From assembly GCA_030615745.1 (NCBI GenBank), contig JAUWYR010000005.1:11255-75254 (forward strand): a DNA stretch of 64,000 nt, given 5' to 3'. The notes under the pieces were generated by a model. That model saw only the letters and a program-made list of their open reading frames with translations. It was not told the DNA's origin and did not search any database. This stretch comes from Candidatus Zixiibacteriota bacterium (GTDB taxonomy: Bacteria > Zixibacteria > MSB-5A5 > SM23-73-2). Within the stretch, counting starts at the first letter, position 1. Every line of letters starts with the position of its first letter. Below, in pieces: positions 468-8,599 of this stretch. The position numbers and the translations under genes were made by a program.

Positions 468-1298
468 TTATAACTTTAAAATCAAAAGTATAATCCCTAA
501 GATTAACCCGAATCCAAGATTAAAAGCCTTGATGGTGATAAAATCTTTAACTGAATAGGAGAAAAGGGGCAACATTCCATGACCATCCTGCACAAATGAG
601 CTAACCAAAAGAACCGAAAAGGGGATCATCCCTTTATGAAACATCATCACAAAAATCAAGTGCGGACCTGATTCAGGGATCACTCCAACAAGTGCAGCTA
701 TAAGCATAACCCAGCCCAAGTTATTCTGCACGAAAAGTTCAAGGTCCCAATTTTTTAGTCCAAACTCCAATACCAGCAAAGCTAAAAAAGTCCACAAAAA
801 GATTTTTATCAGATGTTTTTTTATGATGTGCCCCCAGAGATGATCAACTATATAATGTCTTGGTGAGGCTTTTTCAGAATGATATTCATGCAGGATGCAT
901 TCCTCACATGGTCTTATTTTTAAACGGGGTGCAAGAAAATCTGTTACCCCTGAGAAAAACAAACCGGATAAAAACAATATCCCGAAAAGCAAGAGTGCAT
1001 TTTCTGGGAAAAGTGAGAGCATCACAAAAGCTTCGTCACCAGAGGTAGCGATCATCCCACCTACAATAGCCCCCAAGGACAAAAGACCGTGTCCATATAA
1101 AGAGACATTGAGAAAAGCGCCCAGGCACCCTGGAGTAACCCCAAGAGAAGAAGAGACGAAATACTGTCGCCAGACTTTCCCCTTGATTGCTTCACCAAAT
1201 CTCCCTTTAGTCAGAATTGAGAGAAAATCAACTAAAACCATCATCCCGAAAACGAAAAGGCTAATCTTTATCGATTCCTTTAAAATCTCAAAAAGCAT
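468..1298 (-). CDS. Putative 10-TM heavy-metal exporter (ArsP_2/DUF2899-like permease)
   Basis: A 276-residue, very hydrophobic membrane protein. Conserved-looking polar patches interrupt the membrane segments: GVTPGCLGAF near residue 54, GDEAFVML near 87, a Cys-rich PCEECILHEYH loop near 130-140, GVIPESGPH near 205 and SSFVQDGHG near 230. This layout fits the ArsP_2 family, which databases name putative heavy-metal or manganese exporter without firm biochemistry. The start ATG has GAGGG nine bases upstream. It follows the MinD-like ATPase genes after a 190-base gap on the same strand, so it may be the last gene of the ORP-like cluster. The substrate cannot be read from the sequence. Confidence 0.75.
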   Translation of the reverse strand: MLFEILKESIKISLFVFGMMVLVDFLSILTKGRFGEAIKGKVWRQYFVSSSLGVTPGCLGAFLNVSLYGHGLLSLGAIVGGMIATSGDEAFVMLSLFPENALLLFGILFLSGLFFSGVTDFLAPRLKIRPCEECILHEYHSEKASPRHYIVDHLWGHIIKKHLIKIFLWTFLALLVLEFGLKNWDLELFVQNNLGWVMLIAALVGVIPESGPHLIFVMMFHKGMIPFSVLLVSSFVQDGHGMLPLFSYSVKDFITIKAFNLGFGLILGIILLILKL

Positions 1299-1489: not shown

Positions 1490-2362
1490 TTATTTTCTTA
1501 TTCTTGCGAAAATATTTCCCCAGATTTTTTCAACTTCTTTTGCAGAATCTGAATTTGTATATTCGAGGACAGTTTTTCCTTCTACCATAGCTTTTGTGAA
1601 GTCGTGGCTAAAAGAGATTTTTCCAACAATCTCAATCCCTTTTATTTTACAAAATCTTATTATTTTTTTTGTGTTCTCTAAGTTTATATCATATTTATTA
1701 ATGCAAACTACCGATTTGATTTTAAAATGAGAGGTGAGGTCTAAAACCCTTTTTAAATCTGATATTGCTGACAGTGTTGGTTCGGTAACCACCATAACTA
1801 AATCTGTGCCTGTAATTGACGCAATAACAGGGCAGCCGATACCTGGGGGCCCATCGATTATAACCAGGTCTAACTTATTTTCCTCCGCTAAAAGCCTTGC
1901 ATTTTCCCTCACCAAGCTCACCAATTTTCCTGAGTTCTCCTCAGCGATTCCCAATTTTGCAAAAACCATAGGACCGTATCTGCTCTCAGAGATATACCAT
2001 TCTCCAGAAGTATTTTCCTGCATTTGAATAGCTTCATCCGGACAAACCTGCGAACAAACACCACACCCCTCGCAGGAGATAGGATCGATAACTATTTCAT
2101 CTCCTTTTTCTGATACAGCAGAAAATCTACACACCTCGATACATCTTCCGCATAGAGTGCATTTTCCCATATCAATTTTTGCTTTTTTCCCTGCTATAAA
2201 ATCATGCCTTTGTTTAATCTTCGGATGGAGCAGAAGGAAAAGGTCTGCTGCATCGACATCGCAATCTGCCATAACTTTCTTTTTTGCCAAAACCGCAAAA
2301 GATGCAGTTATAACTGTTTTACCAGTCCCGCCTTTACCACTTATGATGGTAAGCTGTTTCAT
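1490..2362 (-). CDS. MinD/Mrp-type ATPase with inserted 2x[4Fe-4S] ferredoxin domain
   Basis: A deviant Walker A loop, GKGGTGKT, sits at residues 9-16. A ferredoxin insert follows at about 65-105 with two cluster motifs, CTLCGRCIEVC and CEGCGVCSQVC. The second half carries the MinD-like IIDGPPGIGCPV Walker B region near 170. Such P-loop proteins accompany NifX-like orange proteins in ORP operons and are thought to be iron-sulfur cluster carriers or assembly ATPases in the cytoplasm; the exact role is unproven. Its ATG overlaps the stop of the paralogue upstream (ATGA, 2359-2362), so the two are translationally coupled and probably work as a heterodimer. Confidence 0.93.
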   Translation of the reverse strand: MKQLTIISGKGGTGKTVITASFAVLAKKKVMADCDVDAADLFLLLHPKIKQRHDFIAGKKAKIDMGKCTLCGRCIEVCRFSAVSEKGDEIVIDPISCEGCGVCSQVCPDEAIQMQENTSGEWYISESRYGPMVFAKLGIAEENSGKLVSLVRENARLLAEENKLDLVIIDGPPGIGCPVIASITGTDLVMVVTEPTLSAISDLKRVLDLTSHFKIKSVVCINKYDINLENTKKIIRFCKIKGIEIVGKISFSHDFTKAMVEGKTVLEYTNSDSAKEVEKIWGNIFARIRK

Positions 2363-3210
2363 TTTTTCAATTCCTTCTCAATCCCCTGCCACATTTCTTG
2401 GAAGATTTTTTTATACTTCTCCCCCTCGATAAGGAGAGGGATACCGTGCGAATAAAGGACAGCGACATTCCTATCATAAGGGATTTGGGTAAGGATTGGG
2501 ATATTATCTTTTTGACAAAATTTTTTAACTTTTTCATCACCTATATCAGCTTGGTTAATTACAACTCCGAACTTAATTTTAAGTTTTTTCAGAAGCTTGA
2601 CCGCTAATTTAAGGTCGTTGAGACCAAAAGGAGTTGGCTCTGTTACCAAAATACAGAAATCGCTATCTTTCACAGATTCGATTACCGGACAGGAGGTTCC
2701 CGGAGGGACATCGATGATATTGATTTCATCCGAGTCAATTTTTTTCTTAACCTCCCTTATCAAAGGGGTTGCCATAGGTTCCCCTATCTCTAATCTTCCC
2801 TGAACAAATTTGATTGCAAAAGTTTTACCTTGCTCCAAAACCCCTATCTTTTTCTTTTTTTCCACAATTGCTTTTTGGGGACATAAAAGACTACATCCTC
2901 CGCATCCATGACAGAGGGAAGGAAAGACTAAAACCTTATCCTTTGCCACGAAGATTGCATTATAAGCACAAACCTCAGCACATTTTCCGCAGAAGTCACA
3001 CTTTTTTTCATCAACCTGAGGGACTAAGATATTAACCGGTTGTGTTTTCTCAATCTCTGGTTTTAAGAAGATATAGGAATTAGGCTCCTCTACATCGCAA
3101 TCCAAAAATCGAATATTTCTTGATTTATTCTCAGCTAAAAAAAGTGCGAGGTTGGTTGCAACTGTGGTTTTGCCAGTTCCCCCTTTACCGCTGGCAACCG
3201 AGATAATCAT
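2359..3210 (-). CDS. MinD/Mrp-type ATPase with inserted 2x[4Fe-4S] ferredoxin domain, paralogue
   Basis: Same architecture as the downstream neighbour: GKGGTGKT at residues 9-16, a ferredoxin insert at about 70-110 with CDFCGKCAEVC and CHGCGGCSLLC, and the IIDVPPGTSCPV Walker B segment near 165. The tandem arrangement of two diverged copies matches the paired ATPase genes of Desulfovibrio ORP operons (established knowledge). It lies 92 bases after the second FmdB-like gene on the same strand. I infer assembly or delivery of a metal-sulfur cofactor to the NifX-like proteins encoded upstream. Confidence 0.93.
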   Translation of the reverse strand: MIISVASGKGGTGKTTVATNLALFLAENKSRNIRFLDCDVEEPNSYIFLKPEIEKTQPVNILVPQVDEKKCDFCGKCAEVCAYNAIFVAKDKVLVFPSLCHGCGGCSLLCPQKAIVEKKKKIGVLEQGKTFAIKFVQGRLEIGEPMATPLIREVKKKIDSDEINIIDVPPGTSCPVIESVKDSDFCILVTEPTPFGLNDLKLAVKLLKKLKIKFGVVINQADIGDEKVKKFCQKDNIPILTQIPYDRNVAVLYSHGIPLLIEGEKYKKIFQEMWQGIEKELKK

Positions 3211-3302
3211 CTATAATTACCTTTAAAAAACTTTTTAATTCTGTTTTTCCACAGAAATTTTTGCAACAACTCCAACTCTTTTCTCAAATCTCGAATCAAT
3301 TT

Positions 3303-3551
3303 TTATCTGTCCCTTCTGCAGGCTCCGTCCTCAGAACAAGGAGGAGTATCGCACCTCTGGTCTCTTCCACAACAGGTGGTTCCTTTTGGAGATGATTTTC
3401 CTGAAATAACAGAGCTAAAAGATGAAATTAATTTCTTCATTCTAAATGAACCACAATGAGCACAGATGATTTTATTTTCCTTTTTAAACCCCTTTTGAAG
3501 AATCTCTGTCAATTTTCCGCAATCTTCACATTTATATTCATAAATGGGCAT
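3303..3551 (-). CDS. FmdB-family small zinc-ribbon protein with Cys-rich tail
   Basis: 82 residues opening with MPIYEYKCEDCG, then CAHCGS at about 31-36: two CxxC knuckles of the FmdB/CxxC_CxxC_SSSS zinc ribbon. After the serine-rich linker the tail is unusual, with CC, C, C and C residues (TTCCGRDQRC..PPC..GAC) in about 25 residues, suggesting a further metal site. The start is supported by AAAGGA six bases upstream. A perfect small hairpin (GGGATTA/TAATCCC, 3565-3581) lies in the gap to the preceding FmdB gene and may moderate read-through. Function of FmdB proteins is generally uncertain. Confidence 0.85.
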   Translation of the reverse strand: MPIYEYKCEDCGKLTEILQKGFKKENKIICAHCGSFRMKKLISSFSSVISGKSSPKGTTCCGRDQRCDTPPCSEDGACRRDR

Positions 3552-3596
3552 TTAACTTTCCTTTGGGATTAAACTAATCCCTTATCTTTTAGTTGG

Positions 3597-3785
3597 TCAA
3601 GTCGGAGTAGTGCATATAGAGCTACTTTTTGAACCACCTTTCCCCACCCCAAAACCTGAGAATAGCCTTTGAAGATTTTCGCTTCCGCACTTTTTACACT
3701 TTAATTTCTCAGAATCAGCTACAACCCCGACCAAAAGATCAAACTCCTCTCCACAATCTTTGCACCTGTAAGTATATATGGGCAT
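3597..3785 (-). CDS. FmdB-family small zinc-ribbon protein
   Basis: Starts MPIYTYRCKDCG and continues to CKKCGSENL, the two CxxC pairs of the FmdB zinc ribbon, then a Gly/Ser-rich tail. I place the start at the ATG 3785 rather than the TTG one codon upstream because AGGAG sits five bases before it. The two adjacent FmdB copies differ in their tails, with the downstream one being Cys-rich. Members of this family turn up beside formamidase, methyltransferase and metallocofactor genes; here the context suggests a metal-handling accessory role. Confidence 0.85.
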   Translation of the reverse strand: MPIYTYRCKDCGEEFDLLVGVVADSEKLKCKKCGSENLQRLFSGFGVGKGGSKSSSICTTPT

Positions 3786-3936
3786 CAATTCTCCTTTAGC
3801 TTACTAAAATCAATGATTCATAAAAGGAGTAAACTTTTTAACTTAGTAGTTTTGTTTAATTCTATACGCTAATCAACCATCTCTAAATTGATATCATTAA
3901 GAGTAAAAATTAATCAGAACTTTATCTTTCGATATT

Positions 3937-4161
3937 TTATCCTTTAGCCATATTAGCGCCGCATTTAGGACAACTCATCTGATAACAGGGAACACTTCTT
4001 GTGTGGGGAACTTTTTCACCACAAGAGGGGCAGATACAATATCCACCCGGTCCTGATCCTGGGCGATTACCACCCATCCTTCCTCTTCCCTTTCCACGAC
4101 CCACACCCCTTCCTGTTCCGGGTCCTTGACCCGAAGGTCCTGTTCCATCTCCTCTCGGCAT
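3937..4161 (-). CDS. Glycine-rich small protein with C-terminal zinc ribbon (DUF5320-like N-terminus)
   Basis: 74 residues. The N-terminus MPRGDGTGPSGQGPGTGRG matches the MPxGDxxGPxGxGPxTGRG signature also seen in the DUF5320 protein at 4612-4995. The C-terminal half has CICPSC and CPKC pairs and an extra Cys, so probably binds zinc or an iron-sulfur cluster. GGAGG precedes the start within the purine-rich leader. Small proteins of this type accompany NifX/Mrp clusters in anaerobes; their function is not established. Confidence 0.8.
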   Translation of the reverse strand: MPRGDGTGPSGQGPGTGRGVGRGKGRGRMGGNRPGSGPGGYCICPSCGEKVPHTRSVPCYQMSCPKCGANMAKG

Positions 4162-4189
4162 CTTTTACCTCCTTTTAAAATTTTAAGTT

Positions 4190-4423
4190 TTAATACTCAT
4201 ACTTAATAGCTATTGCTCCACGAGGACACTGCTTTACACAGGCTAAACACGCTGTGCATCTTGTGGCATCGATTTTAGCAACCAGATCCACAGAAATTGC
4301 TTTTTTCGGACAGACATCATAACAAATTCCACAACCCACACAATCCTCTTCATCCACAACTGCAAAAACTTTTTTGACCTTTGTTTTTACTCCAATTCTC
4401 CGCCTGATCTCCTCTAATTTCAA
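4190..4423 (-). CDS. 2[4Fe-4S] ferredoxin domain, possibly part of a longer interrupted gene
   Basis: Residues 25-72 hold two complete cluster motifs, CVGCGICYDVC and CTACLACVKQC, each followed by the usual proline. The first 20 residues (KLEEIRRRIG..) look like the end of a coiled coil rather than a ferredoxin start. The only initiator in frame is TTG at 4423 and it has no ribosome binding site. Reading further upstream in the same frame crosses one TAA (4450-4448) into a plausible N-terminal peptide, so the real protein may be a DUF5320-like/ferredoxin fusion (see 4448-4561). An electron-carrier role in the cluster is likely. Confidence 0.85.
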   Translation of the reverse strand: MKLEEIRRRIGVKTKVKKVFAVVDEEDCVGCGICYDVCPKKAISVDLVAKIDATRCTACLACVKQCPRGAIAIKYEY

Positions 4424-4447
4424 AGATAAATTTTGGGCTTGTTTTTT

Positions 4448-4561
4448 TTAAAGCTCCAATTCGTCTTCTCTGTTCAGGTTATTTTTATCATATGAAGGAA
4501 CCTTCCCTGTTTCTCTGAAGAAACCTCTTCTTACTCTACTATGATGTCTGTATATCCTCAT
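4448..4561 (-). pseudogene. In-frame upstream extension of the ferredoxin gene, or separate 37-aa ORF
   Basis: ATG at 4561 opens a basic peptide ending ...NNLNREDELEL, then TAA. Ignoring that one stop, the frame runs straight on as KKQAQNLSLKLEEIRRRIG into the ferredoxin. The joined sequence gives heptad-like hydrophobic spacing, just like the coiled-coil tails of the DUF5320 proteins at 4612 and 5875. A single TTA to TAA change next to a run of eight A would explain it. Alternatives are a sequencing error or two coupled small genes. The ATG has AAAGG directly against it, which is poor spacing. Confidence 0.45.
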
Positions 4562-4583
4562 CCTTTTTAAATCTCTTTTGGAT

Positions 4584-4610
4584 AAAGGGGAGGGGATAAC
4601 CCTCCCCTTT
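4584..4610 (-). terminator. Strong hairpin just after the DUF5320 gene
   Basis: AAAGGGGAGGG and CCCTCCCCTTT flank a short loop directly after the stop codon at 4612. In the minus direction the U-tract is short (TTTATCC), so it may act as a partial terminator or mRNA stabiliser inside the cluster; on the plus strand a T-run follows it. Confidence 0.5.
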
Positions 4611-4611
4611 T

Positions 4612-4995
4612 TTATTTCTTGGTCTTTTTCTCTGATTCAAGCTCTTGAATGCGCCTGTTTATCTCCTCAACTTCCTTCTGTAACAGATCTGCTTGATCTT
4701 TTAGAAACTGAGCCTCGTCCTGAGCGCTTTGTGGCTCTCCATAGTAAGGTGGAGGCCCACTGTAAGGTGGAGACCCACTATAAGGAGAAGCAAAAGGCGC
4801 ATATCCATATCCTGGCAATCCAAAAGGATAATACCCTCGCCTGAATCCAAAACCTCTACCTCTGCCGCGCCCCCGTCCAAATCCCCCAACCCAGGGATTG
4901 GCAAATCCGGGGACAGGAAAGCCAGCACAAAAGCCAGCTCCCCTTCCTGTCATAGGTCCTAATCCCATAGGACCTATTCTGTCACCCCACGGCAT
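4612..4995 (-). CDS. DUF5320-family glycine/proline-rich protein with coiled-coil tail
   Basis: 127 residues in three parts: the family signature MPWGDRIGPMGLGPMTGRG at the N-terminus followed by a single Cys; a Gly/Arg/Tyr/Pro-rich low-complexity middle (residues about 35-85, with GRGRGRGFGFRRG and repeated YSGSPPYSGPPPYYG); and a charged coiled coil at about 90-120 (LKDQADLLQKEVEEINRR). It has AAAGGAGGTG as ribosome binding site. It lies between a NifX-like gene and the ferredoxin. DUF5320 has no assigned function; the shape suggests an oligomerising scaffold or RNA/phase-type protein, which is only inference. Confidence 0.85.
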   Translation of the reverse strand: MPWGDRIGPMGLGPMTGRGAGFCAGFPVPGFANPWVGGFGRGRGRGRGFGFRRGYYPFGLPGYGYAPFASPYSGSPPYSGPPPYYGEPQSAQDEAQFLKDQADLLQKEVEEINRRIQELESEKKTKK

Positions 4996-5059
4996 ATCTT
5001 ACACCTCCTTTCAAGGTTTAAAAACTCTCTTTTTTCAACATACCAAATATCTCAAGGAG

Positions 5060-5452
5060 TCAATCGTGTTGATCTTCAGGGTGATCACATTCGCTTTTCT
5101 CGATTCCATATCCTCTGCCTGAGCCTGGTTTACAAAGGCTTTCTCCAGATTTCAGATTTCCTCTAACTAATTTATCAATCACTTCATCTATTTTTCCGGT
5201 AACTCCAACGATGGTTTCAATTCCCACCTCAGCAAAAAGTGCAGTGGCTCGCCTACCCATTCCACCTGCGATAATACAGTTTACACCCTTTTCAGAAAGA
5301 AATTGTGGCAAAAACGCAGGCTGGTGACCTGGATTTTCAACTATTTCTTTTTTCAGCACTTTCTCTTCTTCGATTTCTACAATGGTAAAACAAGGACAGC
5401 GCCCAAAATGCGAAGATACATAATCACCATCAGATGAGATTGCTACTTTCAT
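5060..5452 (-). CDS. NifX/NifB-C-type Mo-Fe cofactor-binding domain protein
   Basis: 130 residues of the dinitrogenase iron-molybdenum cofactor fold: AISSDGDYVSSHFGRCPCF at the N-terminus, an IIAGGMGRRA loop near residue 73, and a C-terminal tail with GSGRGYG, Cys and several His (SECDHPEDQHD) that could bind metal. Orange proteins of this family bind a Mo-Cu sulfide cluster in Desulfovibrio; others have no known ligand. The start ATG overlaps the stop of the preceding NifX-like gene (ATGA, 5449-5452), so the two are coupled. No nitrogenase genes are in the window. Confidence 0.9.
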   Translation of the reverse strand: MKVAISSDGDYVSSHFGRCPCFTIVEIEEEKVLKKEIVENPGHQPAFLPQFLSEKGVNCIIAGGMGRRATALFAEVGIETIVGVTGKIDEVIDKLVRGNLKSGESLCKPGSGRGYGIEKSECDHPEDQHD

Positions 5453-5832
5453 TTTTGGTCTCCTTTCTCTCCCAATCCAAAATGACGTGGCACAGAAAAA
5501 GTGGAATATTCTTTCAATTCACCATTTTTATACTTTTCCAATGCGTCTTTTACTGTTCTGGTTGCACCTCCAAATATCTTTATATCTGCTGTCTTAAGTG
5601 TTTGAAAAGCATTAGGACCAACATTACCAGTGACCACCACCTCTACTCCCTTATCCACTATCGTCTGTGCTGCCTGAATTCCAGCACCTCCCATAGCCTC
5701 TAAGGCTGGATTAGGTAAAGCTTCAAACTTCTCAGTCTCAGAATCGATAAAAAGAAAATAAGAACATCTTCCAAAACGAGGGTCTACTAAGGAACTCAAG
5801 TTTTCTCCTTGAGATGAGATTGCTATCTTCAT
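5449..5832 (-). CDS. NifX/NifB-C-type Mo-Fe cofactor-binding domain protein
   Basis: Same family as the downstream neighbour, with AISSQGENLSSLVDPRFGRC at the start and VVTGNVGPNAF near residue 75 followed by the typical KIFGGATRTVKDALEKY. The SSLVDPRFGR form is that of ORP-type rather than nitrogenase NifX proteins. I use the ATG at 5832, ten codons inside the longest frame, because AAAGGA stands six bases before it. Two NifX-like copies in tandem suggest a heteromeric carrier or a pair serving different cofactor states. Confidence 0.9.
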   Translation of the reverse strand: MKIAISSQGENLSSLVDPRFGRCSYFLFIDSETEKFEALPNPALEAMGGAGIQAAQTIVDKGVEVVVTGNVGPNAFQTLKTADIKIFGGATRTVKDALEKYKNGELKEYSTFSVPRHFGLGEKGDQK

Positions 5833-5874
5833 AAAAATTCCTTTCTTTATGGGGAAAAGCAAAATCTCCCCATT

Positions 5875-6276
5875 TTACTTTTTCTCTTTTTTTCCTTCTT
5901 TCTCAAGCTCTTTTATCCGAGCTCTAATTCCCTCCATCTCCTCTTCCAGAGCTGAAAGCTCATCTCCTAAAATCTCCTTCTCCTCCTCAACAGTTGGTTG
6001 AGGATAGGCTGGTGGATAACCATAAGGGTCTGGTGGATAACCGTAAGGAGAAGGAGGATAGGGTGGGGCATAGGGTAGATACCCAAAAACCCTTGCTCTC
6101 CACATCCAACCTCTGCCTCCACCAAATGTGCGACCTCTTCCACCACCTCTTGGAAAACCACCTCTCCCTGCTCCAAACCCGCCATATCCAAAAGCAGGAT
6201 AATCAGGATAATAGGGTTCAGACCTTTTGCTTTTCGGGTCTTTCCCAGAAGGATAAGTTTTTTTGCCTTTTGGCAT
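5875..6276 (-). CDS. Gly/Tyr/Pro-rich DUF5320-like protein with coiled-coil tail
   Basis: The N-terminus MPKGKKTYPSGKDP is a variant of the DUF5320 signature. A Gly/Arg-rich stretch (GRGGFPRGGGRGRTFGGGRG) at about 38-57 is followed by a Tyr/Pro repeat (PYGYPPDPYGYPP) and a coiled coil (ELSALEEEMEGIRARIKELEKE). ATG 6276 is preferred to the GTG at 6285, which lies inside the GGAGGTGA ribosome binding site. That site doubles as the last codons of the upstream mrp gene (KGGE-stop), and only one base separates the mrp stop from this ATG, so translation is tightly coupled. Confidence 0.8.
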   Translation of the reverse strand: MPKGKKTYPSGKDPKSKRSEPYYPDYPAFGYGGFGAGRGGFPRGGGRGRTFGGGRGWMWRARVFGYLPYAPPYPPSPYGYPPDPYGYPPAYPQPTVEEEKEILGDELSALEEEMEGIRARIKELEKEGKKEKK

Positions 6277-6277
6277 A

Positions 6278-7072
6278 TTATTCACCTCCTTTTTGTTCTA
6301 AACTTTTAGGTGTTAAAACTTTTATAATCTTCTCAAGTATCTCTATTAAAATCTTTGATGCCTGGGTTTCAGGATAATCACCGAGCAAAGGTTTTCCCTC
6401 ATCACCTGATATCACTATTTCAGGTTCCAAAGGAATCTTCCCTAAAAAGGGAATTCCCATCTGTTCTGCTGCTTTTTCACCCCCACCAGTTTTAAAAAGG
6501 TCTGTTCTTTTTCCACAATGAGGACACACAAAACCGCTCATATTTTCCACAATACCCAAGACTGGGACCCGAAGCTTTTTGGCGAAATTCACTGCTTTTC
6601 GCGAATCCAATAAAGCGATTTCCTGAGGCGTCGTTACAATGATAACTCCATCCAAGCCCTTAATCAGTTGAGTAATAGATAAAGGCTCATCTCCGGTTCC
6701 AGGTGGAGAATCGATTATCAGAAAATCTAAATCTCCCCATTCCACATCTTCCAAAAACTGTTTGATCGCGCCCATCTTAAGTGGACCTCGCCATATCACC
6801 GGAGATTCTTTGTCCTCCAAAAGAAATCCCATCGACACAACTCTTAAATTAGCTAAAAAGAAGACCGGCTGGATTTTTCCCTCAGAGCCGGTCAAAACTT
6901 GATTTTCAAGCCTCAGCATCTTGGGAATATTAGGACCGTGGATATCAACATCTAAAAGCCCGACTTTAAAATTCTTTTTAGCCAATCCTACTGCCAAGTT
7001 AACAGAAACTGTGCTTTTACCAACCCCTCCTTTATTGCTCATAACTAAAATCTTACGTTTTATTTTTTGCAT
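6278..7072 (-). CDS. Mrp/ApbC/NBP35-type iron-sulfur carrier ATPase
   Basis: 264 residues. NKGGVGKST at residues 13-21 is the deviant Walker [41 protein letters not shown] (cited here as the IWRGP switch region) and [12 protein letters not shown] are hallmarks of Mrp proteins, and CPHCG near 188 is the C-terminal CxxC that holds a bridging cluster in the dimer. Mrp proteins carry and transfer [4Fe-4S] clusters. The gene lies 23 bases after the UPF0251 regulator and has AAAGGA upstream. In ORP-type clusters Mrp is a regular member. Confidence 0.93.
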
Positions 7073-7095
7073 GGGTTTTTTCCTTTATTTTTTTA

Positions 7096-7563
7096 CTAAA
7101 ACCTAAGGCTTTGTCCAAATCCACCTCTTCCACCACCTCCCTCTGCCCAACCTCTCTTTTTTTTTGCCCTGTGAATATTCACACCTTGACAGAATGGACA
7201 AAGGGGAGGTCTTTTTGTTCCATAGGGTAGCTCCCAGCTATTTCCACAATCATAACACACATATCTTTTCAATGCTATGACAAAATCACCTCCTTCTATT
7301 CTTATGGCTTTACCGTTGGTTATCGCATCAGCAATTTTTTTCCTTGCAGAAGTCAGGACCCTTCCAAAAGTCTGACGGGAGACCTTCATCCTTTCTGCCG
7401 CCTTTTCTTGCTCTAATCCTAAAGAATCTTTTAATCTTATCGCCTCATGTTCCTCCACAGTGAGAATGACCTCAGCCAATTGGGCTAAAGGAATTCCTCT
7501 CGGCTTAAAATATGTAACATTGGGCACCGCCCTCACCCAGCGAAATCTTCTTGGTCTCGGCAT
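7096..7563 (-). CDS. UPF0251/DUF134 DNA-binding regulator with zinc ribbon
   Basis: 155 residues. MPRPRRFRWV at the start and the segment at about 35-75 (EEHEAIRLKDSLGLEQEKAAERM then KVSRQTFGRVLTSARKKIADAI) form a sigma-70 region 4-like helix-turn-helix typical of UPF0251. A zinc ribbon follows with CYDCGNSW and CPFC near 110-130, then a Gly-rich tail. It is the first gene of the cluster and is preceded by a perfect 24-bp palindrome, so I infer that it is an autoregulator controlling the operon. Ribosome binding site GGAGG lies ten bases before ATG. Confidence 0.9.
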   Translation of the reverse strand: MPRPRRFRWVRAVPNVTYFKPRGIPLAQLAEVILTVEEHEAIRLKDSLGLEQEKAAERMKVSRQTFGRVLTSARKKIADAITNGKAIRIEGGDFVIALKRYVCYDCGNSWELPYGTKRPPLCPFCQGVNIHRAKKKRGWAEGGGGRGGFGQSLRF

Positions 7564-7579: not shown

Positions 7580-7603
7580 AGTTATGAGCATATGCTCATA
7601 ACT
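7580..7603 (-). promoter_or_regulatory. Perfect 24-bp palindrome, likely operator of the UPF0251 cluster
   Basis: The left arm AGTTATGAGCAT and right arm ATGCTCATAACT are exact reverse complements with no spacer. It sits 17 bases upstream of the UPF0251 start codon, between plausible promoter elements (TTGTTT or TTAGAT around 7610-7625) and the ribosome binding site. Its position fits binding by the regulator encoded immediately downstream. I saw no second perfect copy in the window. Confidence 0.8.
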
Positions 7604-7999: not shown

Positions 8000-8599
8000 A
8001 TGAAAAAGAAATTCGACCAGGTGTTCCAGTTTAAGATTACGCTGAAGGATACTAAACCTCCGGTTTGGCGACGAATCCAGGTCCCGGAAACCTATACGTT
8101 TTGGGATCTACATGTTGCCATTCAGGACGCTATGGGCTGGTCAGATTATCATCTCCATCGTTTTGAAATAGTCAATCCTTCTACCGGGATGGAAATTGAG
8201 ATAGGTTTACCAGATGAAGAATTTAATTTTGGGAGAGAAATTCTTTCGAATTAGAAAGAAAAAATAGAAGACTATTTTTCTATGGAAAATAGATTGGCAG
8301 ATTAGACATATGATTTTGGCGATAACTGGGAACACTCAATGAAATTGGAAAAGATAATCCCTCGAGAAAAAAATACAGCCTACCCGAGATGTATCGCTGG
8401 AAAACGAGCATGTCCACCTGAAGATTGCGAAGGAATTAGGAGTTACCAGCGATTGTTAGAGATCATAAGGGATAAAAATCATGAAGAGCACGAACGTATG
8501 ATGGAATGGCTTGGTGGAGAGTTTGACCCGGAATATTTTGATCCAGCGAAAGTCGATTTCAATGACCCCGATACTCGTCGAAAAATTGCTTTTGGATAG
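8000..8599 (+). pseudogene. pRiA4b ORF-3-like protein gene broken by two in-frame TAG codons
   Basis: Frame 8000 reads MKKKFDQVFQFKITLKDTKP..VWRRIQVPETYTFWDLH, the N-terminus of the plasmid pRiA4b ORF-3 family, until TAG at 8252. The same frame continues through a second TAG at 8303, then TYDFGDNWEHSMKLEKI and the C-terminal GKRACPPEDCEG..YQRLLE, ending at 8599. Together 200 codons match the usual length and motif order, so no sequence is missing. Both stops could arise by one base change (for example TGG or TAT to TAG). A functional protein would need amber read-through; other genes here end normally in TAG, so decay is more likely. Confidence 0.85.

Follow-up and report, generated by a model that had tools for sequence, protein, structure and literature searches.

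We analysed a 64,000-nucleotide stretch of DNA from a Candidatus Zixiibacteriota bacterium (assembly GCA_030615745.1, contig JAUWYR010000005.1, positions 11,255 to 75,254), hereafter the window, focusing on an operon of 12 same-strand genes that runs from 7563 to 1490 on the minus strand and encodes an Mrp ATPase, two NifX-like proteins, two ferredoxin-MinD (Fd-MinD) ATPases and several small proteins (Table 1). On sequence grounds, the operon is an orange protein (ORP)-type locus in which MrpORP (Orp9) is split into Mrp and NifX2, NifX1 being of the Orp8 type. By searching the window proteins with profiles, we found that the coordinates, the shared strand and the count of about a dozen genes given in a preliminary description were correct. 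Among the three DUF5320-type proteins that it listed, DUF5320a and DUF5320b pass the Pfam gathering cut-off of PF17253 (27 bits) but DUF5320c stays under it (26.3 bits). Three gene pairs overlap (Mrp/DUF5320a, NifX1/NifX2 and, by 4 bp, Fd-MinD 1/Fd-MinD 2), and the other genes are separated by small gaps, the largest of which (188 bp) lies between DUF5320b and the ferredoxin gene and contains a strong G+C-rich hairpin (4584-4610).

Table 1. Features of the operon and its borders (positions within the window).
Feature	Position	Strand	Remarks
Palindrome AGTTATGAGCATATGCTCATAACT	7580..7603	none	perfect, 24 bp; proposed DUF134 operator
DUF134/UPF0251 regulator	7096..7563	-	PF02001, 94.6 bits, E 5.6e-27; helix-turn-helix (HTH), C-terminal CxxC/CxxC ribbon, Gly-rich tail
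Mrp/NBP35 iron-sulfur (Fe-S) carrier ATPase	6278..7072	-	PF10609, E 9.5e-102; KGGVGKS, CPHC
DUF5320a	5875..6285	-	PF17253, 32.3 bits; Gly/Pro/aromatic/cationic region (isoelectric point, pI, 9.9), acidic C-terminal helix
NifX1, Orp8-type Di-Nase domain	5449..5862	-	PF02579, E 1.7e-24; domain starts MKIAISS at ~5832
NifX2, detached MrpORP-type Di-Nase domain	5060..5452	-	PF02579, E 1.2e-22; HFGRC, C-terminal CDH
DUF5320b	4612..4995	-	PF17253, 87.9 bits; canonical N-motif, Gly/Arg/aromatic region (pI 10.0), C-terminal coil
2[4Fe-4S] ferredoxin	4190..4423	-	PF00037 and related; eight Cys
DUF5320c	3937..4161	-	PF17253, 26.3 bits; DUF5320 N-motif, Gly/Arg-rich, C-terminal zinc ribbon
FmdB-type zinc ribbon 1	3597..3788	-	PF09723, TIGR02605
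FmdB-type zinc ribbon 2, Cys-rich tail	3303..3551	-	PF09723, TIGR02605
Fd-MinD ATPase 1 (Orp3/Orp4-like)	2359..3210	-	deviant Walker A, inserted 2[4Fe-4S], amphipathic C-terminus
Fd-MinD ATPase 2 (Orp3/Orp4-like)	1490..2362	-	overlaps Fd-MinD ATPase 1 gene by 4 bp
ArsP_2 family permease	468..1298	-	PF11449, 101.5 bits; NCBIfam arsenic_eff above cut-off

First, we compared the proteins with known ORP components. The MrpORP model is matched by Mrp over positions 1-256 (E 4.5e-116) and by NifX2 over positions 265-364 (E 3.5e-28); for NifX1, the E-value in the latter part is only 2.9e-8. A fused MrpORP is not present at this locus, Mrp and NifX2 each scoring below the 450-bit cut-off of NF041136. 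With respect to the Di-Nase motifs CxHFGHCE and CDH reported for MrpORP (PMC6345978), NifX2 retains CDH and carries SSHFGRC, in which Ser replaces the first Cys. In a tree of 199 NifX domains, NifX1 grouped with the Desulfovibrio gigas ORP (2wfb; E 1.6e-19) and with all NifX proteins that bear a C-terminal tail (support 96/97), and NifX2 was placed outside this Orp8 clade, with CDH-type domains. Together, the matches of Mrp and NifX2 to the two halves of MrpORP and the grouping of NifX1 argue for an ORP-type locus with a divided MrpORP. Moreover, both Fd-MinD ATPases have a deviant Walker A, two CxxCxxCxxxC motifs and an amphipathic C-terminus, the last as reported for Orp3 and Orp4 (PMC6345978). 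The comparison with ORP operons made in the preliminary description was thus apt, with homologues of all core ORP parts present except a recognised Orp5.

Second, we determined how widespread this arrangement is. A genome scan with Fd-MinD ATPase 1 as query gave 80 named loci. Of these, 79 have an Fd-MinD gene longer than 200 amino acids, and these 79 fall by title into 28 groups, drawn from over 20 named bacterial and archaeal phyla. Neighbours were counted in the 54 loci whose 5' flank reaches 3 kb or more; family assignment relied on our own profiles, made from the sequences of the window and the loci, instead of Pfam. Alongside Fd-MinD we found NifX in 53, DUF5320 in 48, Mrp in 28, FmdB in 17 and DUF134 in 13, and the whole gene set sought in four (L105, L112, L118 and L126). 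Synteny in related genomes, which had been named beforehand as a test, is therefore strongly conserved, and the locus represents a variant form of a known, widespread type rather than an isolated case. The fused-MrpORP loci of Thermodesulfobacteriota (the phylum of L128) also contain Fd-MinD, NifX and often DUF5320. Since DUF5320 is usual in ORP loci, including Desulfobacterota-phylum ones with a fused MrpORP, it is not an expansion peculiar to the window, and the reading as an expanded version in the preliminary description is not supported. Proteins like DUF5320c, which keeps the N-terminal motif and ends in a CxxC/CxxC ribbon where DUF5320 has a coiled coil, recur in 12 other loci. Also, two NifX domains are joined in one open reading frame (ORF) in L066, L067, L069, L073, L075, L103 and L122, and these tandem fusions suggest that NifX1 and NifX2 pair.

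Frequent neighbours of Fd-MinD pairs (loci L042-L140) include NifU-type scaffolds (28 loci, all on the same strand), Fur (26), metallo-beta-lactamase-fold proteins (31), ARMT1-like/DUF89 proteins (31), TrmO (14) and CGGC proteins (12). These surroundings bear on whether the operon serves the role envisaged in Desulfovibrio, where NifX1 would carry an S2MoS2CuS2MoS2 cluster, the Fd-MinD pair and Mrp would help to place the septum from the pole or membrane, and the DUF5320 proteins would be structural linkers. The clustering of NifX1 with the D. gigas ORP and the Orp3/Orp4-like C-termini are in line with it, and a cell-division role has been proposed in print (PMC4672049). However, in the literature found this role is still a proposal, the genes conserved next to the loci elsewhere encode NifU and Fur and not division proteins, and molybdopterin enzymes, present in 38 of 39 genomes, do not set the operon genomes apart. 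We consider this explanation unlikely. Molybdenum demand was rejected as a discriminator of operon genomes on the same count (PF00384 in 38 of 39 relatives). One molybdopterin-oxidoreductase frame of the host (G000:C33:12355-13962) contains one in-frame TGA, also seen in several relatives, and possibly encodes a selenocysteine enzyme.

Third, we asked whether a nitrogenase could account for the NifX-like genes, an outcome set beforehand as refuting the preliminary description. The host genome (2.28 Mb, 98.6% complete) contains no PF00148 protein (the NifD/K/E/N family), and neither do 38 relatives; NifX1 and NifX2 are the sole PF02579 genes of the host. The absence of nitrogenase first noted for the locus thus extends genome-wide, and we excluded a nitrogenase link for the operon. 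Annotations that name such NifX proteins "nitrogenase cofactor proteins" in nitrogenase-free genomes are corrected accordingly. A cofactor factory for another complex metalloenzyme (e.g. a hydrogenase, carbon monoxide dehydrogenase or molybdenum enzyme), with NifX holding a precursor as in iron-molybdenum cofactor synthesis, appears very improbable to us. It draws on the fact that NifX/NifB/NafY domains of nitrogenase systems carry cofactor precursors (PMC5524996), but besides the missing NifDKEN family no constant client enzyme family lies beside the loci, and molybdopterin enzymes are nearly universal with or without the operon.

We then turned to DUF5320, for which no functional study was found in the literature, the mentions found not being about function. 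In many loci, the Orp8-type NifX has a Gly-rich tail with a DUF5320-like helix at its end. Pfam finds PF17253 in 16 of 17 tailed NifX proteins. A profile of the coil, built from eight DUF5320 proteins, picked up nine NifX proteins (E < 0.01); searches of the ORF set shuffled five times gave none. In the AlphaFold model of a tailed NifX, the domain (predicted local distance difference test, pLDDT, ~98) is followed by a disordered linker (~45) and a C-terminal helix (>90). In the tree, all 23 tailed domains belong to the Orp8 clade, the CDH group having no such member, and the tail state changes at least nine times; one L134 ORF fuses NifX to the DUF5320 N-motif (27.1 bits versus 27). Of 39 genomes, 11 have PF17253 matches above the cut-off, and in every case NifX lies within ~1 kb on the same contig, a proximity beyond chance. 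With regard to anaerobiosis, COX1 is missing from the host genome, and from 7 of the 11 DUF5320-positive genomes compared with 7 of 28 others (one-sided hypergeometric ~0.03, which ignores shared ancestry).

The low-complexity parts of DUF5320a (Gly 21%, aromatic 21%, cationic 15%, Pro 20%, pI 9.9) and DUF5320b (Gly 27%, aromatic 20%, cationic 9%, Pro 18%, pI 10.0) match the thioferrate-binding tail of IssA in Gly, aromatic, cationic and Pro content (Gly 21%, aromatic 20%, cationic 10%, Pro 16%, pI 10.7; PMC5524996). Together, the NifX-DUF5320 fusions and this composition favour, by association and likeness, an IssA-like storage with the tail supplied in trans. The similarity would point more towards iron sulfide than towards Mo-Cu. 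The putative tie of DUF5320 to Orp8/IssA-type domains looks new and is, in our view, the most interesting result.

Our preferred explanation, which we hold tentatively and rate at slightly under even, is that the operon is an anaerobic module of the ORP type for iron-sulfide storage and Fe-S delivery. We infer its metal, its storage function and its order of transfer as follows. NifX1 would bind a small metal-sulfide anion, most probably one of iron, and the DUF5320 proteins, joined via their C-terminal helices, would provide cationic Gly/aromatic-rich tails in trans. As in IssA, whose tail is proposed to retain a thioferrate polymer, these might store or buffer iron and sulfide. Clusters would be taken up by Mrp and by NifX2, which corresponds to the detached MrpORP domain, and Mrp would pass them to the two Fd-MinD ATPases and onward to apo-proteins; the Mrp domain of MrpORP is reported to pass Fe-S to ORP proteins (PMC6345978). 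The NifU-type scaffolds and Fur near other loci favour this scheme.

Several observations weigh against it. NifX1 itself is tail-less, ending ~18 residues past its domain, and the tails fused to NifX elsewhere are Gly/Met/Arg-rich with few aromatics. Compositional likeness between DUF5320 and IssA is not homology. Desulfovibrio Orp8 reportedly carries Mo-Cu, not iron. In the same-genus genome G001 (86% complete), no NifX, DUF5320 or DUF134 was found, which could mean that they were lost there, that the window's lineage gained them or that the assembly has a gap. Finally, a replacement of ferritin was rejected, as PF00210 is present in 38 of 39 relatives and no complementary pattern is seen; the module is thus not simply a ferritin substitute. 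A broader version, in which DUF5320 proteins are detached IssA-like tails forming a thioferrate-like store with Orp8-type NifX, and ORP loci in bacterial and archaeal anaerobes of over 20 phyla are a general, DUF134/palindrome-switched equivalent of ferritin that holds iron and sulfide, is conceivable and rather doubtful.

To address how the operon is controlled, we analysed the palindrome upstream of its first gene. The exact TGAGCATATGCTCA site occurs once in the 2.28-Mb genome. The 14-bp core of the palindrome is likewise found once in the host; among 98 related genomes, 14 have it and none has the reversed pattern. It adjoins DUF134 in 12 of these 14, the remaining two lying within coding sequence, probably by chance. 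Of 50 DUF134 genes, 43 have a matching palindrome within the 70 bp that precede them, compared with 0.3% of shuffled sequences, and the same class precedes Mrp in 0 of 45, Fd-MinD in 0 of 163, NifX in 0 of 169 and DUF5320 in 4 of 128 cases. Within 70 bp upstream, it was not found at the archaeal DUF134 genes (L117, L127, L129 and L140) nor in L080. The half-site mostly follows the recognition helix (SRxTFG with TGAGC, SRxTIQ or TVQ with TGTGC, SRPTFH with a GGAC-type site); L126, with Gln at the key position and a TGAGC site, is an exception, and shared ancestry is a confounder of this pairing. In the AlphaFold2 model of DUF134, the HTH (residues 52-83) is sigma-region-4-like, as judged from short Foldseek matches with a root-mean-square deviation below 1 Å and weak E-values, poor MCM alignments being ranked at the top. 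Together, the palindromes at 43 of 50 genes and the largely helix-tracking half-sites indicate that DUF134 is very probably the autoregulator of the operon, with the 24-bp palindrome as its predicted operator. No published description of the site was found in the literature, and the operator is our strongest new result.

The direction of regulation and its signal can also be proposed. In several relatives (e.g. L161 and L173; by inspection), the palindrome lies between TTGACA and CATAAT, which suggests repression; this is not clearly so in the window, where a sigma-70 promoter scan of the operon gave no more sites than in shuffles. DUF134 would thus repress the operon at the palindrome until a metal or redox signal, perhaps sensed by its Cys ribbon, lifts repression. 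DUF134-type palindromes also lie near a DUF364/DUF4213 "putative heavy-metal chelation" gene in two Dehalococcoidia-type loci (L126:6079 and L102:8331), a possible second member of the DUF134 regulon.

These chelation genes, together with the flanks of the operon, raise the alternative of heavy-metal or arsenic resistance, in which NifX, DUF5320 and FmdB would bind toxic metal sulfides, ArsP_2 would export and DUF134 would be a metal-sensing repressor. The ArsP_2 gene lies on the same strand, 191 bp downstream of the twelfth gene, and is a possible thirteenth member; in the Zixiibacteriota relative L061, a gene of the same family is inside the operon, between the two Fd-MinD genes. Also, CDF cation-efflux transporters with a C-terminal NifX domain occur near Fd-MinD in three loci (L065:4606-5820, L076:10731-12011 and L117:16250-17503). 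However, ArsP_2 is found in just two independent loci, detoxification needs neither Fe-S carrier ATPases nor NifU scaffolds, and no ArsR, ArsC or copper-ATPase family is among the recurrent neighbours inspected, which makes resistance quite improbable in our estimate. On the other side of the operon, a pRiA4b ORF-3-like gene (8000-8599, plus strand) is split between two ORFs, which cover profile positions 1-58 and 104-172, and is probably broken.

Iron and sulfide storage and trafficking in strict anaerobes are poorly understood, thioferrate storage being documented for one archaeon in the literature found. The putative tie of DUF5320 to Orp8/IssA-type domains and the likely DUF134 operator make two hitherto unstudied families testable. 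Among known systems, the NifX/NifB/NafY carriers share the PF02579 domain with the window proteins, whose genome, in contrast, lacks the NifDKEN family and whose genes do not stand beside nitrogenase. The Mrp/NBP35/ApbC carriers have KGGVGKS, CPxC and a full-length ParA/NUBPL match in common with the window Mrp, which differs in sharing its operon with two Fd-MinD ATPases and two NifX genes. The Desulfovibrio ORP system (Orp3, Orp4, Orp5, Orp8 and Orp9/MrpORP) likewise has two 2[4Fe-4S]-MinD ATPases, an Orp8-type NifX and both halves of MrpORP, whereas the window adds DUF5320, FmdB and a ferredoxin and has no recognised Orp5. Its two divergent sigma-54 operons are under DVU2106 (PMC3897727), whereas the window has one operon with DUF134 and a palindrome, and no enhancer-binding-protein gene for such control in the cluster. 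Finally, IssA (thioferrate storage in Pyrococcus furiosus; also the IssX clade) has an IPR003731-type domain in common with NifX1 (PF02579). IssA bears its own C-terminal cationic Gly/aromatic tail of ~70 residues, whereas in the window such a composition belongs to DUF5320a and DUF5320b and not to NifX1, so that an IssA/IssX-like Gly/Pro-rich tail of pI ~10-12 would be provided in trans here and is fused in other loci. Unlike IssA, the tail proteins of the window carry an N-motif and a C-terminal helix.

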